DNA of 41,438 nucleotides from a virus. The notes under the pieces are model-generated. The model saw only the letters and a program-made list of their open reading frames with translations. It had not been told where the DNA came from and ran no database searches. A program made the translations under genes and the position numbers. Shown here in pieces: positions 2,660 to 41,438 of this stretch; the first letter of the stretch is position 1; every line of letters begins with the position of its first letter. Location: positions 1-41,438 of the IMG/VR virus record IMGVR_UViG_3300028590_000045, one strand, 5' to 3'.

Positions 2660-3049
2660 TTAAAACAGCGATGCCGGATCAACCTCGTAGGGGTGGCGCT
2701 CGCCAAGCAGATAGAGCGTGTAGCGGTTGCGCGGGCCGCTTGGAAATCCAAGGGACCGCCGGGGCGAGGCTTTGCGGCATGACGGGCAACGGCGCATGAA
2801 GCCCTTGAAGTCCGCGCCGCTCACCTGCTCGAACAGCGCGGCGCACTGCCCGCATTCGCTCTGCCACGTCATGAGCGTGCCGGCGCTGCCGTCGCGGCGG
2901 GTGTGATCGTCAACGGCCAGGAGCTTGTGAACGGCAACTAGCACACGCTCGCGGCATCGGCCCGTATCGGCTTTGCGGTCTATTACGAGGCGCGACCCTA
3001 CCTCGACGGCTTCAGGGTCGAAGCGCAAATACGGCATGATCTCGGGCAT
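2660..3049 (-). CDS. Small zinc-ribbon-like protein ending in DPASLF
   Basis: 129 residues. The ATG at 3049 is preferred over 3085 because GAACGGAGAAACAGCC lies directly before it. A CGQC...CPSC pair (CGQCAALF, then RRCPSCRKA) suggests a four-Cys zinc site in the second half. The C-terminus is VDPASLF, the same end as the small terminase and nearly that of the DUF2815 protein, written with different codons. It is the first leftward gene after the divergent control region. Function unknown; nucleic-acid binding is plausible. Confidence 0.65.
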   Translation of the reverse strand: MPEIMPYLRFDPEAVEVGSRLVIDRKADTGRCRERVLVAVHKLLAVDDHTRRDGSAGTLMTWQSECGQCAALFEQVSGADFKGFMRRCPSCRKASPRRSLGFPSGPRNRYTLYLLGERHPYEVDPASLF

Positions 3050-3442
3050 GGCTGTTTCTCCGTTCAAGTTAAGCGCCCGTTTCATACAATGCCGATGCGC
3101 GGTTTCATAGTATATATTCCTTCCAGAGCCGGGGGGCTTACCACCACCCCGTCACGCTGTCGCGCGCCGTGCCGGTAATCCCGCGCGGGCGTTCTGGCAG
3201 TAGTAATCGGTAACGGGTGGTAAAACGTAAAATCACCATGCCAGATTGCTACGCGGCTTTGAGGTGTCGCGCTCCCGGCCTCCCGATCGTTCGACGTGGC
3301 CGCTGAAGGATCAATAGGTGCAAAAACCTAATCGCCTCAACGGGTTAGCGGCTTCAGCCCCCGTTTACGGTGTTATGTCCGTTTGACTTTGGCGGCGTTC
3401 AGGGACGTTCCTTATCGCCCATAGCAGCCATGAGCGCACGAA
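3050..3442. promoter_or_regulatory. Divergent intergenic control region (about 390 bp)
   Basis: This is the only long non-coding stretch, and leftward and rightward genes both start from it. Visible structure: two direct copies of GTTTCATA (3079-3086, 3102-3109) 23 bp apart next to the AT-rich TATATATT at about 3111-3118; a loose inverted repeat TTACCACC...(3138) / GGTGGTAA (3216); a TAGGT/ACCTA hairpin (3315-3330); AACGGG (3339-3344) paired with CCCGTT (3360-3365); and TTGACT at 3383. It likely holds divergent promoters and perhaps an origin. I could not define a convincing -10/-35 pair for either direction. Confidence 0.6.
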
Positions 3443-4201
3443 ATGTCGACCGAAAAGCCTGATAGCAGCCCTGCTAGCCTGTTCCGCACCGGATATCAGC
3501 CGGAACGCCACGCCAACCGCCGGCGCACCGGCAGTCGTGCCAAGCTCGCAAAGCGCTTCTTTGAAGACACCTACGCCGCATGGGAGGAACAGGGGGAAAG
3601 CGCCCTAGCCCGCGCCGCCTTCCACGATCCTATGGGCTTCGTCTCAATGGTGGCCCGCCTCATGCCGCAGAAGATCGAGGTTAGCACCCCTACGGATGGC
3701 ATGAGCGATGAGCGTCTAGCAGAAATGCTAGAGGTAGCGGAACGCATGGCGGCGATAAGGGCAGGCCAGGTGATCGACGCTACGCCGTTGCGTGTAGCAG
3801 CCCTGCCATTGGCGCACGAGCCCGCCGACGAAAACGCCCTCTGCACCGATGCGGCCGAAGAGGGGGGTGGGGGGCCGGATCGCGCGCACCTCCTTGGGGG
3901 AGTAAATACCTCATCCGCACTTCGGCCGCCGCGGGCCGATACACCCGTAGCAGAGCATAACGTGTTAAACGTAGCAGACGCGCCACGGGCAGACCTCGAT
4001 ACGATCAGAGAGCGCGTGAGGGCTCTCCCTCCCCTTAGCGGCCAAAAAGCTACAGAGGCCGAGACGTCAGTAGCAGAAACGCCATCGCTGCCGTATCCAG
4101 TGGGGCGGCCGTTCGCGAAGCCCGATCACGTCGTCGAGCGCGAGAACCGTCGCCGCATCGCCGAAGCTGAAGACGACATTGACCCGGCGAGCCTGTTCTA
4201 G
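3443..4201 (+). CDS. Terminase small subunit
   Basis: 252 residues. The N-terminal third (RTGYQPERHANRRRTGSRAKLAKRFFEDTY...HDPMGFVSMVARLMPQKIEV, about residues 15-83) resembles phage small terminases that bind DNA and recruit the large subunit. Position upstream of the large terminase supports this. The rest looks like a disordered linker with unusual DNA: repeated GTA-GCA codons, a G6TG6 run and a palindromic element. PASLF occurs at residues 10-14 and again as the C-terminal DPASLF. No good ribosome site precedes 3443. A ten-codon ORF starts at 3431 in another frame and could be a leader. Confidence 0.75.
   Translation: MSTEKPDSSPASLFRTGYQPERHANRRRTGSRAKLAKRFFEDTYAAWEEQGESALARAAFHDPMGFVSMVARLMPQKIEVSTPTDGMSDERLAEMLEVAERMAAIRAGQVIDATPLRVAALPLAHEPADENALCTDAAEEGGGGPDRAHLLGGVNTSSALRPPRADTPVAEHNVLNVADAPRADLDTIRERVRALPPLSGQKATEAETSVAETPSLPYPVGRPFAKPDHVVERENRRRIAEAEDDIDPASLF
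3955..3968 (+). promoter_or_regulatory. Palindromic element copy inside small terminase gene
   Basis: GCATAACGTGTTAA matches the GCATAAC-NN-GTTAG element in the rightward orientation. It lies within the linker-coding part of the small terminase gene, about 230 bp before the copy at 4201. It may be a second operator or a chance match; the GTA/GCA-rich context around it is itself unusual. Confidence 0.35.
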
Positions 4202-28207: not shown

Positions 28208-30075
28208 CGGCGGCCGCCGAACGGAATCATCGTTACCGCGCCGCTCTCGACCGCAAAGGCGAGCACCTGATCCCACTTGCGCTTGAAGTTCGACACATCC
28301 TTCGAGCCGTCGTAGCGATCCTTGAAGACGTTCTTGGCGATCTCGATATCGACGCAGGTGCGGCCCTCGATCTCTTCAGGCTCTTCGACAAGCGCCCATT
28401 CGATGCTCTGCACCAATAGCTCGACGTGCTTCGGTATCTTCGTGAGATCGCGCTGCGACGGCGGCGCGTCGGACACATAGCAGGAGGTGACGGTGCGGCC
28501 GCGGCTGTCGCGGCCGAGTTCCTTCGGGATCAGCGTGAAGACGCCGAGCGAACGCTGCTGAGCGTCGCGAGCTTTCGTGACGCTCAGCTCACGAATGCTG
28601 TTTGTCTTCTCGCGAGTGATCTCGATAACTACGTCGACGTCATTGAAGATCGCACCCGCTCCCCGCTGGCCTTTGCCGTCTTTCGGGGGGTGATGCGTGA
28701 CGAACACGAAGGCGTTCAGCATCTCCGACAGCTTAGACAGCGCCTTCATGGCAATGCCTGCCTCGCTGTTGTCGTTCTCGTCGCGCAAGAGGCCGGAGGC
28801 CGAGAGCGTATCGATCGCGACCATGCGGACCGGGACGTCAAACCTTGCCTCCATCGCGGCCATCTGCTGCTTCAGGTCTTCGGCCAGGGCTTCGAGCGCG
28901 CCTGCCGCGGCGAGGTTGTTGATATCGCCGGCGACGATCGGGAGGCGATCCGCCTCGCCGAGCGCCTCCATACGGTTGAGCACCGATCGGCGGCCTTCGC
29001 CGGTCAGGATTATTGAGCCGCCACGGTCGTCGGGTTCTATCCCGAAGAACCCCTTGCCCGTCGCCAGCGAGCGAGCAAGGTGCATCAGCACGAAGGTCTT
29101 GCCTCCCTGCGACGGACCGGAAAGCACGCCGACGCCGGTTTGCGGCAGCAATTCGTAGAACAGCCACGTCGCATCGAAGTTGATCGCGTCGCCATGTGCC
29201 TGCCAGCGTCGATCTACGGGCGCTGGAGCGGCGTAACGCGCTTCGGGCATCTCACCTACCCCGGCGAAGTCAACGGCCGGTGACTGCCCTCCTGCGGCCG
29301 ACAGGGCGTATAGGAAGGCGTTGTCGACCTTCTGCCGTAGTTCCTCCAAATTCCACGGCGGCGAGCAGCGGTCGTTCCAGCGCTCGGCCATCAAGTCAAA
29401 TGCCGTCTCGGCCGACAGCCCCATGTCCTTGACGATGCAGGCGACACGGAACGTCAGATCGTCGCCGCCCATGCCTTCGACGGCAAGCGGCGCTTCGGTT
29501 TCGAGATACTTCGTGGCGCGGGCCAACGCGAACTCCGTGTCGAGTTCCGTCGCGGCTGCTGCGCCGCTGCGCTCGCGAGGCTCGTCGAGCCGGGCGATCA
29601 GCGTCGACGGGGCGACGGCCATCGGCGCGTCGTTGTCCACCTCGTAGGTGCCTTCGGGGACTATAGAGCCCGGCGCAATGACGTAGCCATGCGCACTTCG
29701 GATATCCAAGCCATCGCCGATCTTGCCGGCGGACAGGCTCTTCGACGGGCCTGCCAGATAGGCGTGGCGGCCGCCAGTTGGTGTGCGCACCATCAGCGTA
29801 TCGAGCGGAAGATCAAGAGCCATGTAGGACGCCATACCGTCCTTGCCCTTCTTCATATCTATATCAACGACAATCATGTCGTCGGTCGCGACACCGATGT
29901 TGTGATCGAGCGGCCAGCCGGTGACGGGATCACTCCACATGGCGGCGACGGCAGCGACGTCCGCGGTCGCGACGTCGTAGAACGCCTTGACGCGCGGCTC
30001 CTTCGCGCCGGGGATGCACGGGAAGACCCTAAATCCGCGAGCGGCCCATGCCAGTGCGTGATCGCGCATGTTCAT
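28180..30075 (-). CDS. PrimPol-helicase (bifunctional primase-polymerase fused to AAA ATPase)
   Basis: 631 residues. The N-terminal about 165 residues match the PrimPol family: FRVFPCIPGAKEP, catalytic DID (71-73) and GGRHAYL (His 104). After a linker containing DFAGV (269-273) comes a RepA/AAA-like ATPase: Walker A GPSQGGKT (320-327), Walker B MVAIDTLSAS (about 418-427), and a His-rich sensor FVFVTHHPPKDGKGQRGAG. It would prime and unwind phage DNA. ATG at 30075 shares its A with the upstream HNH stop (TAATG). It is the last gene of the leftward block. Confidence 0.88.
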   Translation of the reverse strand: MNMRDHALAWAARGFRVFPCIPGAKEPRVKAFYDVATADVAAVAAMWSDPVTGWPLDHNIGVATDDMIVVDIDMKKGKDGMASYMALDLPLDTLMVRTPTGGRHAYLAGPSKSLSAGKIGDGLDIRSAHGYVIAPGSIVPEGTYEVDNDAPMAVAPSTLIARLDEPRERSGAAAATELDTEFALARATKYLETEAPLAVEGMGGDDLTFRVACIVKDMGLSAETAFDLMAERWNDRCSPPWNLEELRQKVDNAFLYALSAAGGQSPAVDFAGVGEMPEARYAAPAPVDRRWQAHGDAINFDATWLFYELLPQTGVGVLSGPSQGGKTFVLMHLARSLATGKGFFGIEPDDRGGSIILTGEGRRSVLNRMEALGEADRLPIVAGDINNLAAAGALEALAEDLKQQMAAMEARFDVPVRMVAIDTLSASGLLRDENDNSEAGIAMKALSKLSEMLNAFVFVTHHPPKDGKGQRGAGAIFNDVDVVIEITREKTNSIRELSVTKARDAQQRSLGVFTLIPKELGRDSRGRTVTSCYVSDAPPSQRDLTKIPKHVELLVQSIEWALVEEPEEIEGRTCVDIEIAKNVFKDRYDGSKDVSNFKRKWDQVLAFAVESGAVTMIPFGGRRYVALPSFG

Positions 30076-30858: not shown

Positions 30859-33039
30859 CTACTTGACGTAGCGAATATCCTCCCACGCGCTGACGGCGAC
30901 GGGCATGTCGGCGCACCACGGATCGGGTTGCGCCATGATCCGCTGATACTCGTCGGCCGAGCCGAAGAGCGTGTCGACTTCGCTGACGTTTTCGTCGTGG
31001 ACGGTGAGCACGAGCGGATAGCCGGCTGCTTCGACGCGGAACATGCTGGCGACGAGCTTGTCGCGGGCGAGCCCCTGCACGACGTTGTTGAACTGGAGCC
31101 CACCATAGAGGCGGTGCGGCTCCCATCGCTTCGTGTAGCTGTTCACCGCGTCGTATTCGACCGCATATTTGTAGCGGCCGGGCGTCGCTTCCACCCAAAT
31201 CTTCTCGCCGCCAATGCCGATGATCTCGTGCGCCTTCTTCGGCGCTTCGATTTGCTGGCGCACCATGCGCGGCATCGCGTAGCATAGCACCCGGCCGCTC
31301 GGGAGGCGGCAATAGAGAAAGCCGTTCGCAGCAAGATACACGACGCGGCTGTTCAGGACCGGCACCTTCAGCCCCGGCGTGCCAACGGCCGCGATGGCTG
31401 CGTCCTGCAAATCCCACCACGCCTGCACGATATTTGGATGCGCGGCGCGCCACGCGTTAACGACACACTTTACGCCGGTCCACGTATCCTGATCCAACCC
31501 GCGGCTATCCTCGTCGCTGTAATACGTGGAGACGCGGTGCCACTCTTCGGGCGCGACGGCCGTGCGCGCCACGGCGGCCACCTGCGCAGGCTTGATCCCG
31601 TAGCCGGCCGCCATCGCGATATACGCGCCTACGCTGCCCTGATAGCCGAGCGCGAGTTCCTGCACCTTGCCGATCTGACGCTCGGCCTTCGTCACCGTCT
31701 CGACGTCCTGGCCGAACGAGCGGGCATAGGACAGCTTGTAAAGATCGGCGCCCTCACCGCGATCGTAGGCGCGGAAAGCTTCGAGCTTCCAGTGTTCGTC
31801 GGCGATCCACGCCGCACCGCGCCCTTCGATGTTGCTGAAGTCGCCGCTCACGAACTTCTTGCCGGACGGGGCGACGAGCATGGCGCGCATGCACTTCGCG
31901 ACTGTCTCCAGCGCCGGACCGATTACGGCCTCGATCGCGTCGACGATCTCCTTGGCGCTGCGCTGGAGCGCGAGAAGGTCGATCGCCATCATCACGTCGG
32001 GCAGATCGTCGGCGTCAAGGCGAAGGAAGTTCTGCGGCTGCATGATCCGCCCCGCCCATCGCCCGGTGGCCGCACCATGATAGGCGAGCGTTCCTCGGAC
32101 GCGGCCGTCGCTGCACACGCTGTTGAGCATCGCCTTGAACTTTGCAGTGCTCGTTCGCGCCGCTGCTCGGCGCAGGCGGATCGCCTCTTCGGCCGTAGTA
32201 TCGCCCATGATCGACGTCGCTAGCACGATTTCTTCGACTTCGCCTTTGGCGACGCTCACGCAGGGGATGCCGCGGTCGTTGAGCCACTTCACGAGCTTCG
32301 CCGCTTCGGAGCATTTGCGCACCGCGCCGTCCGTCAGCCACCACATATGATCGTCGGCACGCTTTAGCGCCTCTTCGACCACGGCAAGGGCGCGTTCCAC
32401 CGACTTGACATCGATCATCACGCCGCGATCGTTGATCGTCTGATCCAGTTCCCACACGCGCCGTTCTTCGGGGGAGAGCGCGGGGATCGACCGGTCGACG
32501 TCCGTCTCTGTCTCGACATCCTGATCGCAGTAATCCATGAGGCGGCCGACGCGCTCTTCGTCATCCCACCATACAACTGTGCCGTCAGGATCGATGCGGC
32601 GAGGCTTGCACATACGCATCATCAGCGCGTGCCCTTCCTTGTCCTTCTGCATCGGCGTCTTCAGCGCCCGGCCGAGTTGATCGAGCGAGGCGGGCAGGGC
32701 GAGCGCAAGCCCGCGGGCCATCGTGCAATCCTGCTGCTCGATACGCAGCGCCGGCCAGTGCGGCACGACGCGCTTCAGCAACGCCCAATTCCATATCGTC
32801 CGCTCGAACCCGGCGTTGTGGGCGACGACGCGGCCGCCACTCTCAATATGGGCGAGCAGTTCGTAAGGGTCTTCGTCTCCGGGCCGCCAGCGATTGACGA
32901 TTCCGCGCTCACCGATGCGCCACGACAAGCATATCGCACCGGTGAGCGGGTGTTCGGCGTAGCGATAGACGCCGGCCTTCTTCAGATCGACAGTGGCGCG
33001 CGTCTCGAAGTCGATATGGGCGGCTAGCTCTTGCGACAT
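30859..33039 (-). CDS. DNA polymerase, family A, with 3'-5' exonuclease
   Basis: 726 residues from the ATG at 33039 (MSQELAAHIDFETR; a start at 33069 adds ten less likely residues). Exonuclease motifs: HIDFET (residues 8-13), VAHNAGFE, and YCDQDVETE. Polymerase motifs: A, SGDFSNIEGRG; B, ERQIGKVQELALGYQGSVGAY with the K and Y in place; C, TVHDEN. It is the replicative polymerase. No thioredoxin-binding loop of T7 type is obvious. Confidence 0.92.
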   Translation of the reverse strand: MSQELAAHIDFETRATVDLKKAGVYRYAEHPLTGAICLSWRIGERGIVNRWRPGDEDPYELLAHIESGGRVVAHNAGFERTIWNWALLKRVVPHWPALRIEQQDCTMARGLALALPASLDQLGRALKTPMQKDKEGHALMMRMCKPRRIDPDGTVVWWDDEERVGRLMDYCDQDVETETDVDRSIPALSPEERRVWELDQTINDRGVMIDVKSVERALAVVEEALKRADDHMWWLTDGAVRKCSEAAKLVKWLNDRGIPCVSVAKGEVEEIVLATSIMGDTTAEEAIRLRRAAARTSTAKFKAMLNSVCSDGRVRGTLAYHGAATGRWAGRIMQPQNFLRLDADDLPDVMMAIDLLALQRSAKEIVDAIEAVIGPALETVAKCMRAMLVAPSGKKFVSGDFSNIEGRGAAWIADEHWKLEAFRAYDRGEGADLYKLSYARSFGQDVETVTKAERQIGKVQELALGYQGSVGAYIAMAAGYGIKPAQVAAVARTAVAPEEWHRVSTYYSDEDSRGLDQDTWTGVKCVVNAWRAAHPNIVQAWWDLQDAAIAAVGTPGLKVPVLNSRVVYLAANGFLYCRLPSGRVLCYAMPRMVRQQIEAPKKAHEIIGIGGEKIWVEATPGRYKYAVEYDAVNSYTKRWEPHRLYGGLQFNNVVQGLARDKLVASMFRVEAAGYPLVLTVHDENVSEVDTLFGSADEYQRIMAQPDPWCADMPVAVSAWEDIRYVK

Positions 33040-33073
33040 TGCTCTGGGTAATCCTCGTCGACGCCCCACCGCT

Positions 33074-33515: not shown

Positions 33516-34181
33516 TCAGAACAGGCTTGCCGGGTTGACCGAGGCCGCCTGCGCGCTCGTGTCGATCGACACGCCCGCGAAGTCCGCGGCGGGGTTGCCC
33601 CCGCCACCGCCGAAGGTGCGATCCTTGGCGATCATCATCAGGCCGTTGAGCCCGAAGCTGACGCCCTTCTTCAAGCCGCTGTCGAAGACGAACGGCCGGA
33701 GCACCATCAGATACCAAAAGCCGCTCTGCGCTTCGTCCTGATTGACGATCGGCGCGCCACGCGCGTCGACGATATAGGGCTGGCGCTGATCGGCCACGCC
33801 GACGACGAAGACGCCGCCGGGCGTGTAGCCTTCGATGTTCGCCTTGTCGGCCTGCTGGCGGAACGGGGTGTGCAGCGTCGGGCCGCCCACCTGGCCGGCC
33901 GTGGGCCACTTCGCGAGCGCCGCCTCGGTCGCAGCCGTCTTCAGGACGGAGAGATCGGCGGCGGGCGGGAAGAGAGCCGTGGCGGTGAACTTGCCCTGCG
34001 TCGCCGGCGGCACGGGCTTGCCCCGCGCGAAGACGTTGAGGAAGCTGCCGCGCACCGGGCCGGTGCGGTAGTTGCCGTTGGGCTGTCCGTTGGCGTCGAT
34101 CACCTTCTGGCAAGGGAACTTCGCCCACATTTCCTCGATCCACTTCGGGTCCATGTCGGAAGCGTTCATCTGATACGTCAT
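33516..34181 (-). CDS. DUF2815-type single-stranded DNA-binding protein
   Basis: 221 residues. The body (GSFLNVFARGKPVPPATQGKFTATALFPP...PTLHTPFRQQADK...GYTPGGVFV...GFWYLMVLRPFVFDSGLKKGVSFGLNGLMMI) matches the DUF2815 family of phage OB-fold ssDNA-binding proteins, usually encoded beside a DUF2800 nuclease as here. The C-terminal tail has DFAGV (200-204) and ends NPASLF. SSB-type proteins recruit partners through their C-tips, so this tail is a likely docking site. GAGGACCGAGATC precedes the ATG. Confidence 0.85.
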   Translation of the reverse strand: MTYQMNASDMDPKWIEEMWAKFPCQKVIDANGQPNGNYRTGPVRGSFLNVFARGKPVPPATQGKFTATALFPPAADLSVLKTAATEAALAKWPTAGQVGGPTLHTPFRQQADKANIEGYTPGGVFVVGVADQRQPYIVDARGAPIVNQDEAQSGFWYLMVLRPFVFDSGLKKGVSFGLNGLMMIAKDRTFGGGGGNPAADFAGVSIDTSAQAASVNPASLF

Positions 34182-34219: not shown

Positions 34220-35536
34220 TTAGCTGTCGATATTGACGCCCGCGAAGTCCGCGGCCGCCCCGGCGGTGACAGCATCCCGCCGATCGGTGTCCGGTGCCAT
34301 AGTCTGCCCGGAGCTATCCTTCAGGGTGAAGCGCAGCGACAGATCGTCGAGCGCTTCCTTGCGCCCCGCCTTGTCGGCGGCGGGGATGCGAGCTTTGATG
34401 AGCCGTTCGGCTTCGGTGATCGTCACGAGCTTGCGCGGATAGACGTCATCGGCCTCCACGCCGTAGATCACCTCCAGATAGCCGGCGATCTCGCTCTCGT
34501 TGTCGATCCACTTGCGGCGGCCGATCTTGTCGACGAGCTTGAAGCCCGGCACCGGCACGCCCTGCGTGAGCAACCCGAATGCGAACTCGCGCACCTGCTT
34601 CGCCCATGCGTCGAGCACGTCGAGCCCCTGAAGCAGCTTGCCGATCCGGGCCGTGTCCATGTCGGCCGGCTTCGGCAGCGCCTTCGGGCTGATCCCCGCA
34701 ATGTCGCTGAAGTCGATGCCGATCGAAGCCGTCACCTCTTCCTGCTTGGCGGGACACACGGCCGCAGCGTCGCACCACCGGCAGTGCGATCCGGGGTTGA
34801 GCGCGTCACGGATCGCGAGCGGGCCGCTCTCGGCGAGGCGGGCGTCGACGGCCTTGGCGCGATCGACGGCCTGCTCGACTTCGGCGACGAACTCCAGAAG
34901 CTCGAACGTGTCCATCGGCCGGGGCTTCACCCCCGGAATGTCCTGCTCGTCGGCGTCGCGAGCGCGGGGCTGCACGATGACGAGTACGAGTTCGGCGATG
35001 CTCCAATCCGGGTGCGTCAGTGCTGCGCCGGCGGCGTAGAACTTCAACTGCGCGTTGTCTTCGGCGCTGACGCTCACCCCCTGGCCGTGCTTGTAATCGA
35101 ACACGACGAGACGGCCGAGCGAAGGGTGATAGACGAGGCAGTCGTTCGCGCCGAACACCTCGCCGTCTTCGGCCGATGCGATCGGGAGGGCGAAGCGCTG
35201 CTCGATCTCCATGATGGCGTCGGGACTGCGGCCGAGTTCTTCCTGCACGGCGTCGAGATAGACCTGCACGGCGGCCGCCATCTCTTCGGTGACGATCTTC
35301 TTCGAGGCAAGCTTCGGGCTCGTGATCTCGTCGCCGATCCGCTGCGAAGCGTCGAAGAGACGGGCGGTAAGACACTCTTCGCCAAGCTGATGCGCGAAGG
35401 TGCCCTCGTCGGCGTAGCTGCTCGAACCGCGCTCCGGCACGGTAGCACATAGTGCAGGCGAACCGGAGCAGGCGATGACACGCCCGATCACCGATCCGCC
35501 GAAACGGCTATGCGCTTTGGTGGCGTGTTCGCTCAT
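34220..35536 (-). CDS. DUF2800 PD-(D/E)XK nuclease (Cas4/RecB-like)
   Basis: 438 residues from the ATG at 35536 with CACAACGGAGAGCAGGCG upstream; longer frames lack this. N-terminal FGGSVIGRVIACSGSPALC, nuclease core FGANDCLVYHP...LVVFDYKHGQG (D..xK of PD-(D/E)XK), QLKFYAAGA, and a Cys pair HCRWCDAAAVCP that may hold an Fe-S cluster as in Cas4. The C-terminus is DFAGVNIDS, the same DFAGV as in the ssDNA-binding protein. Likely role: DNA end processing in replication-recombination. Confidence 0.85.
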   Translation of the reverse strand: MSEHATKAHSRFGGSVIGRVIACSGSPALCATVPERGSSSYADEGTFAHQLGEECLTARLFDASQRIGDEITSPKLASKKIVTEEMAAAVQVYLDAVQEELGRSPDAIMEIEQRFALPIASAEDGEVFGANDCLVYHPSLGRLVVFDYKHGQGVSVSAEDNAQLKFYAAGAALTHPDWSIAELVLVIVQPRARDADEQDIPGVKPRPMDTFELLEFVAEVEQAVDRAKAVDARLAESGPLAIRDALNPGSHCRWCDAAAVCPAKQEEVTASIGIDFSDIAGISPKALPKPADMDTARIGKLLQGLDVLDAWAKQVREFAFGLLTQGVPVPGFKLVDKIGRRKWIDNESEIAGYLEVIYGVEADDVYPRKLVTITEAERLIKARIPAADKAGRKEALDDLSLRFTLKDSSGQTMAPDTDRRDAVTAGAAADFAGVNIDS

Positions 35537-36565: not shown

Positions 36566-37070
36566 AGGTTTCGTGCCGTCGTGCTCGGCTGATCGTCGCC
36601 TTCGATACGCCGTGCTTCGCGGCCGCTTCCCGGCACGACAGCGACGACAATCGAATATCGGCCAGGGCTTCGGGCGACAGCGCGGCGAGGTAGTGCGCGT
36701 GCCCGCGCTTCGTCCGCCCGTGTTGATCGCGATCCGCCGCGTTGCCCTTGGCGGTCTTCCACGACAAGTTCGTTTCCGCATTGTGCGTCCGCACGCCGTC
36801 GCGGTGCGCCACCTGTGCGCCCGGAAAGGGCGGCTCGCCGTGAAAAGCGCGACAGACGAGCCGGTGCAGGCTGCGTGCGACGCGCTGATCGCCGATGCGG
36901 ATCGTCACCCATAGGTAGCCGTCCTTGCGCAGATACCCCGGCTGCTCGACGCCCGGCGCGGTGTTCCGACCGGCAGTGGCGCGACGCAATCGCCCATCAG
37001 AAGATATTTCGTAATCCGGTGCTTCCCGTAGCGGAAGCCACCGGACGTTGCGGCTGTTCGTCGGTTCCAT
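36558..37070 (-). CDS. NUMOD4-HNH homing endonuclease
   Basis: 170 residues. NUMOD4-like start RWLPLREAPDYEISSDGRLRR, HNH core LVCRAFHGEPP...VAHRDGVRTHNAETNLSWKT, then a C-terminal HTH (SLSCREAAAKHGVSKATISRARR) of the DNA-recognition type common in such nucleases. Its first 74 bases overlap the helicase gene's end in another frame, consistent with an insertion that trimmed or extended the helicase C-terminus. Confidence 0.85.
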   Translation of the reverse strand: MEPTNSRNVRWLPLREAPDYEISSDGRLRRATAGRNTAPGVEQPGYLRKDGYLWVTIRIGDQRVARSLHRLVCRAFHGEPPFPGAQVAHRDGVRTHNAETNLSWKTAKGNAADRDQHGRTKRGHAHYLAALSPEALADIRLSSLSCREAAAKHGVSKATISRARRHETYE

Positions 37071-38390: not shown

Positions 38391-39359
38391 TCAAAGCCCC
38401 ATGCAGCCGCAGCCGCTCTCGCCGGGGAGATATTCGATCGTCGGACCCGAGCCCCTAGCCGCGAAGGTGTCGAGCGTCATGGGCTTCGTCTTGCCCCCGC
38501 GGCGGTCGCGTAGGATCGAGACGTTCTTGTTCAGGAACGCTCTGATCTTCTGCTCCATCATCGCATCATAGGCGAAGCGCTCCGGGTCGACGCGATAACG
38601 GTTCTGCCAATGCGCCATGCCGGCCTTCACGCAGAAGCCGCCGCAGTTGTTGTGCATGTAGCCCTTCGCGTAGAGCCGCGGCGGCCGCATCCCCAATTCT
38701 TCGAGCGGCAGATAGGCTAGGGCCATCGTGCCGGGCGGGAGATCGCGCCAGTTCGGATGCTCGTCGAGCGCGATCAGCGGCGCTTCGACCTTCCACCCCT
38801 TCGAGGCGTGGCGAGCGCGAATGCCCGCGGTGCCTTTCGCCGGATCACCGTAGAAGCGCTCTTTTTCGTGATCGCCGATCCCGACGAGGAACACGTCGTC
38901 AGGGCTGCAATGCTCTTTGCGCCAGCGATCCAATATCTCGCGCTTGCCGAACTTCGAGCAGGGATCGCGGCGCGTGTTGCCGAGCATGCGTTCATCCCTG
39001 AACACCTCCCACGGATCGCGGCCCTCGACGATCCACACAAGTTCGGGGATCACTTCGGCGGTGCGCTCGCGAAGCTGCTGAAGGAAGGCGCGCCACTCCG
39101 GGTTGCCGGCATAGTCCTCGATCCGCACGCTCTCGTCGACGCGGTAGTCGGGGAAGTCTTCGGCGTGCGGGAGCCAATTCGGCGGCGGCCGATCATAGAC
39201 GTCAGCGGCCGCTTCGATCAGGAACCGATAAGCGTCGGCGTCTTCGTAGAGCACGTCCGTAAAGAGCAGGCCGTGCTCGACTTGCGGGTGCAACGCCCGG
39301 TCGATCTTGGCGGTGCGGTAGCTTCCCTGCCCCGCGCTGAACATCGTGTAACGCTTCAC
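38391..39359 (-). CDS. PP-loop ATPase, PAPS-reductase-like, partner of DpdA
   Basis: 322 residues from the GTG at 39359, overlapping the DpdA stop (GTGA). N-terminal PP-loop-like MFSAGQGSYRTAKI, then LLFTDVLYEDADAYRFL and VEGRDPWEVFRDERMLGNTRRDPCSKFGKREILDRW match a phage/bacterial adenine-nucleotide alpha-hydrolase family often labelled PAPS reductase-like. C-terminal Cys residues (HNNCGGFC, about 239-243; SGCGC near the end) could bind a metal. In bacterial dpd clusters DpdA works with the ATPase DpdB; this protein may play a similar ATP-using role, which is inference. Confidence 0.8.
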   Translation of the reverse strand: MKRYTMFSAGQGSYRTAKIDRALHPQVEHGLLFTDVLYEDADAYRFLIEAAADVYDRPPPNWLPHAEDFPDYRVDESVRIEDYAGNPEWRAFLQQLRERTAEVIPELVWIVEGRDPWEVFRDERMLGNTRRDPCSKFGKREILDRWRKEHCSPDDVFLVGIGDHEKERFYGDPAKGTAGIRARHASKGWKVEAPLIALDEHPNWRDLPPGTMALAYLPLEELGMRPPRLYAKGYMHNNCGGFCVKAGMAHWQNRYRVDPERFAYDAMMEQKIRAFLNKNVSILRDRRGGKTKPMTLDTFAARGSGPTIEYLPGESGCGCMGL

Positions 39360-40093
39360 AGGGCCATCACCTTGTTGTGGAATGTCAGCGCTTCGAGCGG
39401 GCAGTTCGCATCGCGCCCCTGCTTCCTGGCCGAGAAGGACCATGCCATGCTGTCGGCGCTGTAGAGCAGCGCCCGCACCCGCGGATCGCGCAGGGCGGTC
39501 AGCTTCACGCCGAAGCCGTGTAGCCGCAGATCGGGGCGCTCGGCTTTAATCGCCTCCAGCACTCGCACGATGAGCGAGGGATCACCTTGCCGCTTGCACA
39601 CCGAACCGACGCCCACCCACATGCCGGGCAGCAGTCGATCGCCATACTGGCGGATATGGTCAACGTATTCTTCAGGCTCGAAGCCCTGAAGCACGGGCAT
39701 GATTGGCACGGAGCCGTCACTGATGAGGCTCCACGCTAGAAGCAATTCGTCGTAGCGCTCGATCGTCATCCGCTGATGATCGGCCACGGCCAGGCCGGTG
39801 CGTTCAAGGATGAACGGCTCGCACATATAGTCTTGCGACACGACGATCAGCAGGCCGGGCACCTGCGCCCGCCAGCGTTCCGCCTCGACGGCGTATTCAC
39901 CCGGCGAATGCGGAAAGTCGCCGAAGCGCTGGATCGTCGTGAAGGCCGCGCTGTCCATCATCCATCCTCCCGCGGGAGGAATGAACGGGCCGCGCCGGCG
40001 ACGCAGCACCGTCGCGCTGATGCACGCCATCGGCAGGTGTCGAGCCGAGTGCGGATTGTGCATGCCGGTGAAGAAGCGAAGCTCTTCATCCAC
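39356..40093 (-). CDS. dpdA: DpdA-type guanine transglycosylase (7-deazaguanine insertion into DNA)
   Basis: 245 residues from the GTG at 40093 (AGGTGG upstream; an ATG at 40120 would add nine residues inside the QueD-like gene). It starts ELRFFTGMHNPHSARHL, as phage DpdA proteins do. GGWMMDSAAF (Asp 47) matches the DSGGF active-site Asp of tRNA-guanine transglycosylases, and SADSMAWSFSARKQGRD (Asp 214) matches the nucleophile region. The tRNA-enzyme zinc site is absent, as expected for DpdA. It would swap guanine in DNA for a 7-deazaguanine base, protecting against restriction. Confidence 0.85.
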   Translation of the reverse strand: MDEELRFFTGMHNPHSARHLPMACISATVLRRRRGPFIPPAGGWMMDSAAFTTIQRFGDFPHSPGEYAVEAERWRAQVPGLLIVVSQDYMCEPFILERTGLAVADHQRMTIERYDELLLAWSLISDGSVPIMPVLQGFEPEEYVDHIRQYGDRLLPGMWVGVGSVCKRQGDPSLIVRVLEAIKAERPDLRLHGFGVKLTALRDPRVRALLYSADSMAWSFSARKQGRDANCPLEALTFHNKVMAL

Positions 40094-40379
40094 GCCGCCA
40101 CCTAGCGAAGATGCGTTCACCGGGGCGGCTTACCTCGATCTCGTCGCATCCGTCGAGCTTGTGGCCGATCAATTCGGCAAGCTGCTCGCCGCTGCTCTCG
40201 TTCGCACCAAGGCCGCGATGATCGTAGAGCTTCAGCACCCGTGCAAGCTGCTCGTGCCGCTCCATCGCATCGGTGCCGTCCGCAGGCCACCATGCTCGAA
40301 CTTCGTAGGTGTGTCCGTGCCAACGGCGGCCGTCGTGATGCGCGCAGCAGAGGATGCCCGAAACGCCGGTATGGATCAT
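40086..40379 (-). CDS. Short QueD-like (6-carboxytetrahydropterin synthase family) protein
   Basis: 97 residues; ATG at 40379 overlaps the RuvC-like stop (ATGA). LCCAHHDGRRWHGHTYEV carries the three zinc His of QueD (His 14 or 15, 21, 23), YDH (53-54) matches the LDH motif and SGEQLAELI the T/S-x-E helix. Two catalytic residues of QueD appear missing: the Cys four residues before HGH, lost in a deletion, and the Glu of the K-E-T segment (here VSRP). QueD makes a precursor of preQ0. This protein, at 97 instead of about 120 residues, may do a changed reaction. The neighbour DpdA ties it to deazaguanine chemistry. Confidence 0.72.
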   Translation of the reverse strand: MIHTGVSGILCCAHHDGRRWHGHTYEVRAWWPADGTDAMERHEQLARVLKLYDHRGLGANESSGEQLAELIGHKLDGCDEIEVSRPGERIFARWRRG

Positions 40380-40978: not shown

Positions 40979-41438
40979 TTCGACGCGCTGCTCTCGGCGG
41001 CGAGTTCGGCGTCGATAATTTTAAAGAGGGTTTCGGCCAGGGTCTTATATGCGTTCGACCGCGCCGCCCACCGCGCCGCCGTCGCCGCCTCCGCCGTCGC
41101 CGCCGTCGCCGCCGTCGCCGCCGTCGCCGCCTCCGCCGTCGCCGCCGTCGCCGCCGCCTCCGCCGTCGCCGCCGTCGCCGCCTCCGCCGTCGCCGCCGCC
41201 TCCGCCGTCGCCGCCCACCGCGCCGTCGCCGCCTCCGCCGTCGCCGCCGCCTCCGCCGTCGCCGCCCACCGCGCCGCCGTCGCCGCCCACCGCGCCGCCG
41301 TCGCCGCCCACCGCGCCGTCGCCTCCGCCGCCTCCGCCTCCGCCGTCGCCGCCTCCGCCTCCGCCGTCGCCGCCTCCGCCGCCAAGATGCCGCGGCCCGT
41401 TTCGAGAGCGGTGATGACGCCGTTGCATGCATCGACGA
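40975..41438 (-). CDS. Ala-rich repeat phage protein, 3' part (gene crosses the contig ends)
   Basis: Continuation of the gene that starts at 539. The frame enters at the right end and stops with TGA at 40977-40975, overlapping the RuvC-like ATG. About 109 residues consist almost only of Ala, Thr, Glu, Arg and Trp, in hexapeptide (ATAEAA) and heptad (RWAATAA) units. A normal C-terminal helix follows (YKTLAETLFKIIDAELAAESSASK, about the last 24 residues). A long helical rod or coiled coil is likely. The +-strand Pro-rich and the other minus-strand Gly-rich readings of the same DNA are shadows. Confidence 0.75.
   Translation of the reverse strand, partial: VDACNGVITALETGRGILAAEAATAEAEAATAEAEAAEATARWAATAARWAATAARWAATAEAAATAEAATARWAATAEAAATAEAATAATAEAAATAATAEAATAATAATAATAEAATAARWAARSNAYKTLAETLFKIIDAELAAESSASK
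41058..41383. repeat. GC-rich minisatellite coding an Ala-rich rod
   Basis: Tandem, imperfect units built from GCC, TCC, GTC and CACCGC triplets; on the coding strand 18-base GGCGACGGCGGAGGCGGC and 21-base RWAATAA-coding units alternate. All length changes are multiples of three. The tract continues as bases 1-87 at the other end. It probably explains why assembly broke here, and copy number may vary between particles. Confidence 0.85.
41313..41438. repeat. Right copy of 126-bp terminal overlap
   Basis: Identical to bases 17-142. The unique part after the minisatellite (from about 41384) encodes residues of the same protein as the left end, in the same frame, which supports true circular continuity rather than a chance match between repeats. 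Confidence 0.9.

Follow-up and report, generated by a model that had tools for sequence, protein, structure and literature searches.

Why do three unrelated proteins of one phage end in the same five residues? In the phage record analyzed here (41,438 bases, the whole of which is called the window), the motif PASLF occurs four times in the six reading frames, and there are no other copies. Three of the four copies stand directly before a stop codon, at the ends of an ssDNA-binding protein (SSB), a putative small terminase (TerS) and a zinc-ribbon-like protein, and no other protein ends in this way. The shared ending is called the tag below.

Position and chance expectation of the PASLF copies

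The tag is DPASLF in the zinc-ribbon-like protein (2663–2680, minus strand; VDPASLF with the stop codon spans 2660–2683) and also in TerS (4181–4198, plus strand; DIDPASLF with the stop codon spans 4175–4201), and it is NPASLF in the SSB (33519–33536, minus strand; VNPASLF followed by the stop codon of the gene at 33516–34181). The fourth copy lies at residues 10–14 of TerS (3470–3484, plus strand). The initial annotation had listed these four sites, and every coordinate holds.

The codons for the final residues are GTT GAT CCG GCA TCG CTG TTT in the zinc-ribbon-like protein (VDPASLF), ATT GAC CCG GCG AGC CTG TTC in TerS (IDPASLF) and GTC AAC CCG GCA AGC CTG TTC in the SSB (VNPASLF). Because the codons differ among the copies and the flanks are unrelated, PASLF is not a copied DNA segment, as had been proposed from the codons at first, and an origin by DNA duplication was ruled out. 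By chance, 4e-5 PASLF C-termini are expected, and the chance that any three among about 41 proteins have a common C-terminal 5-mer is about 5e-8. When 67.7 Mb of 11 alphaproteobacterial genomes was searched in all frames, [DN]PxSLF directly before a stop codon was found 0 times, versus three times in 41 kb here. The corresponding DNA pattern gave six matches in the 67.7 Mb, all of which read otherwise once translated.

RNA families and tRNAs were also searched in the phage record, and none was found. The right end of the record (41049–41414) consists of low-complexity repeats, translated in several frames as long stretches of Pro/Ser or Arg, and is possibly an assembly artefact.

Proteins that carry the tag

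The zinc-ribbon-like protein has 141 residues (2660–3085, minus strand) and ends with YEVDPASLF. Its identity as a zinc ribbon, taken from the initial annotation, is weak (best HMM E about 0.01–0.1). In its structural model the pLDDT is below 50 over the last 16 residues. A PDB fold search with this model (pLDDT 60) gave no significant match, and PDB sequence profiles gave no matches.

The putative TerS has 252 residues (3443–4201, plus strand) and is located directly upstream of TerL. The assignment is based on this position and on a profile that resembles those of DUF5681-type ORFs preceding terL in prophages; Pfam and NCBIfam gave no direct match for the protein. The TerS model comprises a helical N-terminal region and a low-confidence linker. 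The divergent linker bearing the tag (3761–4180, plus strand) is absent from the TerS relatives of about 130 residues in prophages.

The SSB has 221 residues (33516–34181, minus strand) and is a Gp2.5-like, Enc34-type protein (DUF2815; PF10991, E=7e-17; phrog_112, E=2.5e-23). It shares with T7 gp2.5 this protein type and the C-terminal Phe tip, but its tail NPAADFAGVSIDTSAQAASVNPASLF contains two acidic residues only and is not an acidic tail of the T7 gp2.5 type. Relatives in the SSB family generally end with an acidic tail and a short hydrophobic tip, such as DDDLPF, DEDDF, DDLFN, ASFLD, AAGLFE and DIDDLL, so the likeness to the hydrophobic C-tip of SSB proteins that was recognized at first is real. 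The tag-bearing tails are of low confidence in the models and probably disordered, as a docking motif would be.

The other replication proteins of this phage, which are the family-A DNA polymerase (30859–33069, minus strand), the PrimPol-helicase and the exonuclease, do not carry the tag. A DpdA-like protein (39356–40120, minus strand; PF23859, E=1.4e-43) is also encoded, which points to a probable 7-deazaguanine modification of the DNA.

Conservation of the tag in related phages

Four IMG/VR metagenomic phage records (G001–G004) were compared with the window. All orthologues found in these relatives end with [VI][DN]Px[SG]LF at the exact C-terminus, at BLAST identities of 39–98%. The zinc-ribbon-like orthologues of G002, G003 and G004 end with VNPASLF, VDPLSLF and IDPESLF (68, 64 and 39% identity), and the TerS orthologues end with VDPASLF, IDPESLF and IDPASLF (47, 66 and 47%). 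The SSB orthologues end with VNPASLF in G001 and G002 and with VNPAGLF in G004 (98, 90 and 68%). LF is invariant in every C-terminal copy of this phage and the orthologues, and Pro occupies the first position of PASLF in all orthologues. No other ORF of at least 50 residues in these records ends with [SGD]LF.

The TerS linker of roughly 100 residues is rewritten between the phages, whereas the final residues are constant. The zinc-ribbon-like protein of G004 has lost one of the four presumed ligand cysteines and retained the tag, which indicates that the tag outlives a feature of its carrier domain. Close homologues were the place where the initial annotation had proposed to look for the C-terminal motif, and there it is kept in every orthologue found while the linkers diverge. 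Judged by this conservation, the tag is under selection. In contrast to the C-terminal copies, which stand within the wider consensus [VI][DN]Px[SG]LF-COOH, the N-terminal PASLF of TerS is retained in G003 only and missing in G002 and G004. It is probably incidental or lineage-specific.

Outside these relatives, no homologue of TerS or of the zinc-ribbon-like protein was found among GenBank phages. Bacterial genomes scanned with the TerS profile gave no match, and prophages were then reached via TerL relatives. None of the prophage TerS-like ORFs before terL (mostly 120–175 residues, with TerL 50–63% identical) is tagged. The SNF2 helicase of this phage ends with LRNIF (37000–37014, minus strand), as does that of G001, whereas G002 and G004 lack this ending; it might be a variant of the tag that is either recent or in decay.

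The conservation bears on two explanations without docking. A functionless coincidence, by chance convergence or shared ancestry, could be considered since single hydrophobic C-termini are not rare and only three proteins are involved here. It is contradicted by the conservation in all orthologues across strong divergence, by the very low chance expectation and by the different codons, and its likelihood is close to nil. The ending could also be a C-terminal degron, or an element at the DNA level where terS ends, such as a pac site or a regulatory site. In G004 (L023:18852–19053), a tRNA-Gln (TTG) is flanked by a 36-nt direct repeat of the terS 3' end, as though recombination had inserted a tRNA cassette there; in favour of this explanation, the DNA end is thus recombinationally active. 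However, the ending is found in three genes with different contexts and different codons, which shows that the peptide is conserved and not the DNA, and a degron is unlikely on stable virion and replication proteins. Both forms of this explanation are very improbable.

Shared C-terminal tails in other phages

Sister phages were compared for shared tails after the motif was known; the dipeptide test used is unbiased within each phage, although the choice of phages is not. In Rhizobium phage RHph_N65, 12 of the 69 annotated proteins end with [SDGN][LIM]F(x), compared with 0.24 expected, and the flavour is [DG]IFx. The tagged set includes RusA, the SSB, an exonuclease-type protein, a PAPS-reductase-like protein and the helicase-primase. 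In EBPR siphovirus 2, the host of which was inferred from an annotated CRISPR match only, VF is present at positions −3 and −2 in 11 of the 75 proteins (0.2 expected; Bonferroni 8e-13), giving an xVFx flavour. A resolvase, an exonuclease and two methylases are in this set, and the SSB has SLF near its end (AGSLFGNQ).

Smaller sets were found in three other phages. DDLL ends the SSB and two other proteins of Rhodoferax phage P26218, in which D-x-L-x is enriched (Bonferroni 0.007). SDLA ends both the exonuclease and the PrimPol of BcepC6B, and [DN][LIV]Fx is present on the SSB, TerL and two small proteins of the uncultured podovirus ct8d5349. No significant shared tail of this kind was observed in RHph_N2, MaeYong, MJing1 and Baldr, several of which are DUF2815 phages; RHph_N2 is the named close phage (TerL 61%). 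These phage-by-phage comparisons indicate that the flavour of the tail varies from phage to phage but stays the same inside each one, and that analogous multi-protein tags exist in phages with the same SSB family. The family-A polymerase is untagged in all tagged phages examined.

A second motif, DFAGV, is shared by three proteins of the window, all encoded on the minus strand. It is located in the SSB tail (33570–33584), near the C-terminus of the DUF2800 exonuclease (34235–34249; retained in G001, G002 and G004) and following the PrimPol domain in the primase-helicase (29257–29271; retained in G004). In BcepC6B, DDFE is common to the SSB, the exonuclease and the PrimPol, and the tails of SSBs and nucleases in other phages repeatedly contain xDF. 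This sharing suggests that DFAGV could be another docking motif of this type.

Candidate receptors of the tag

The explanation we prefer, and to which we give an even chance, is that [VI][DN]Px[SG]LF-COOH serves as a docking tag at the C-terminus and tethers the SSB, the packaging protein and an accessory protein to a single hub of the replisome, most likely the family-A polymerase of the phage. In this mechanism, the unrelated DNA-acting proteins (SSB, TerS and the zinc-ribbon-like protein) would bind one common pocket on the phage replication machinery through their last residues, and the docking would place the coating of ssDNA and the packaging of the genome at newly copied phage DNA. The receptor would be a phage-encoded replisome protein, with the family-A polymerase as the first choice by analogy with T7. 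According to PMC5686142 and to Ghosh et al. 2009 (as cited in PMC9917605), T7-type SSB tails touch the polymerase and the primase-helicase. We infer that the tag binds a protein, that the site may be the same for all three carriers and that the polymerase could provide it. The absence of the tag from the polymerase in all of these phages is what would be expected of a receptor.

Alternatively, the tag could be a clamp motif that lacks Gln and binds the host beta sliding clamp (DnaN). All three proteins would then dock there, and the phage SSB and genome packaging would be coupled to the clamps that stay behind on DNA after replication. TerL relatives in Rhizobiales prophages make an alphaproteobacterial host probable, and the likeness to the S-L-F end of clamp-binding peptides in the initial annotation is real for this group. 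In the 11 alphaproteobacterial genomes in which MutS was read, out of 12 sampled, it has [DE][DE]LPLF, mostly [IV]DDLPLF. DnaE2 has xxLPLF or TLSLF, without Gln, at the site aligned with the internal clamp motif of DnaE, and DnaE itself has QxD[IM]F in most genomes sampled. The tag partly matches MutS [IV]DDLPLF and DnaE2 xxLPLF of this inferred host group. A clamp-like LPLF without Gln is conserved in both MutS and DnaE2 of these alphaproteobacteria.

Published work also agrees with docking on the clamp. MutS of C. crescentus needs DLPLF for recruitment to the replisome (PMC8034640), the AMSLF of the E. coli delta subunit shows that a clamp motif can dispense with Gln, and there are known clamp motifs at C-termini in which the carboxylate touches the clamp (PMC11139829). 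The T4 terminase is linked to the clamp via gp55 (PMC9026906). Among the phages compared here, the xDIF tags of RHph_N65 resemble the QxDIF/QxDMF of rhizobial DnaE.

However, relative to the clamp-motif consensus Q-phi-x-[L/M]-[F/L], the tag has Leu at position 4 followed by Phe but no Gln at position 1, and the missing Gln and the Ala at position 2 both weaken clamp binding (PMC11139829). The phage polymerase, which is expected to be the first clamp client, has no clamp motif, and no host protein ending with [DN]PxSLF was found in the 67.7 Mb searched. A phage-encoded receptor is further favoured because the phages of betaproteobacteria differ in flavour (xVFx, DDLL and SDLA), though the clamp motifs of betaproteobacterial DnaE and MutS are uniformly QxxLF and do not match these tails. 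A phage-encoded receptor fits slightly better than the host clamp, for which we see a real but lesser possibility. Of the earlier proposal of docking to a hub, the docking itself is supported by the conservation, whereas the host clamp is a candidate receptor.

It is also conceivable that the tail is an intramolecular or self-association element. The SSB tip would then fold onto its own OB groove, as it does in DUF2815/gp2.5 crystals, and TerS and the zinc-ribbon-like protein would bind the SSB through the same groove. In the crystals of Enc34 ORF6, gp2.5 and further DUF2815 proteins, the C-terminus reaches into an adjacent molecule (PMC5686142), and the T4 terminase gp17 binds the SSB gp32 (PMC9026906), both consistent with such binding. 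In contrast, the SSB tip of this phage is not an acidic DNA-mimicking tail, and we consider the groove an improbable target of the tag.

The docking tag on a phage hub can be extended to the other phages, with slightly less confidence than for the window itself. The tail might be a private C-terminal address tag, one short hydrophobic sequence that is constant per phage and differs between phages (PxSLF, [DG]IFx, xVFx and DDLL). As many as a dozen proteins with unrelated functions (SSB, resolvase, nucleases, methylases, primase-helicase and terminase) would carry it, and one co-evolving phage-encoded replisome receptor would read it, so that repair, modification and packaging would be recruited to replicating phage DNA.

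Discussion

The shared ending suggests that three unrelated proteins plug into one common docking site on the DNA-copying machinery of the phage. SSB tails and clamp motifs are already known kinds of docking element. In the open-access literature searched, we found no report of one private tail of phage-specific flavour across unrelated replication and packaging proteins. Nor did we find phage proteins described there as having a clamp-like or C-terminal tag in common, or a link described between small terminase and clamp.

If the explanation is true, genes of unknown function in many phages could be assigned to the replisome from their last five residues. How packaging, recombination and modification are coupled to replication in a phage without its own clamp, a long-standing question, would become testable with a peptide. 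A general rule of many clients and one receptor with a phage-specific tail would also be searchable in all phage proteomes.

Compared with bacterial clamp motifs (QL[SD]LF, DLPLF of MutS, AMSLF of delta and the C-terminal QLGLF of Pol II), the tag is alike in its [SD/P]LF core, the upstream acidic residue and the disordered tail, and some of the clamp motifs are C-terminal as well. It differs in having Pro in place of the Gln at position 1, in never being on the polymerase and in always being at the extreme C-terminus. The T4 gp45-binding tails (gp33 and gp55) and the gp17-gp55-gp45 coupling similarly link packaging to replication by short tails. However, T4 encodes its own clamp, whereas none was recognized in this phage, and the tag here is on the small terminase itself.

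In T7, gp2.5 acts on the polymerase through its C-terminal Phe tail. The gp2.5 and gp4 tails docking on the gp5 polymerase are comparable in three respects: a short Phe-ended C-terminal tip on a Gp2.5-type SSB, a similar tail on at least one further phage protein, and a family-A polymerase. Unlike in T7, the tag here is a defined sequence and not a generic acidic tail, it is also on packaging and zinc-ribbon-like proteins, and the polymerase is a proposed receptor. The C-tip of bacterial SSB (DIPF) is likewise a C-terminal hydrophobic hub peptide on an SSB. In bacteria, one protein offers its tip to many partners, whereas in this phage many proteins offer one tip, presumably to one partner.
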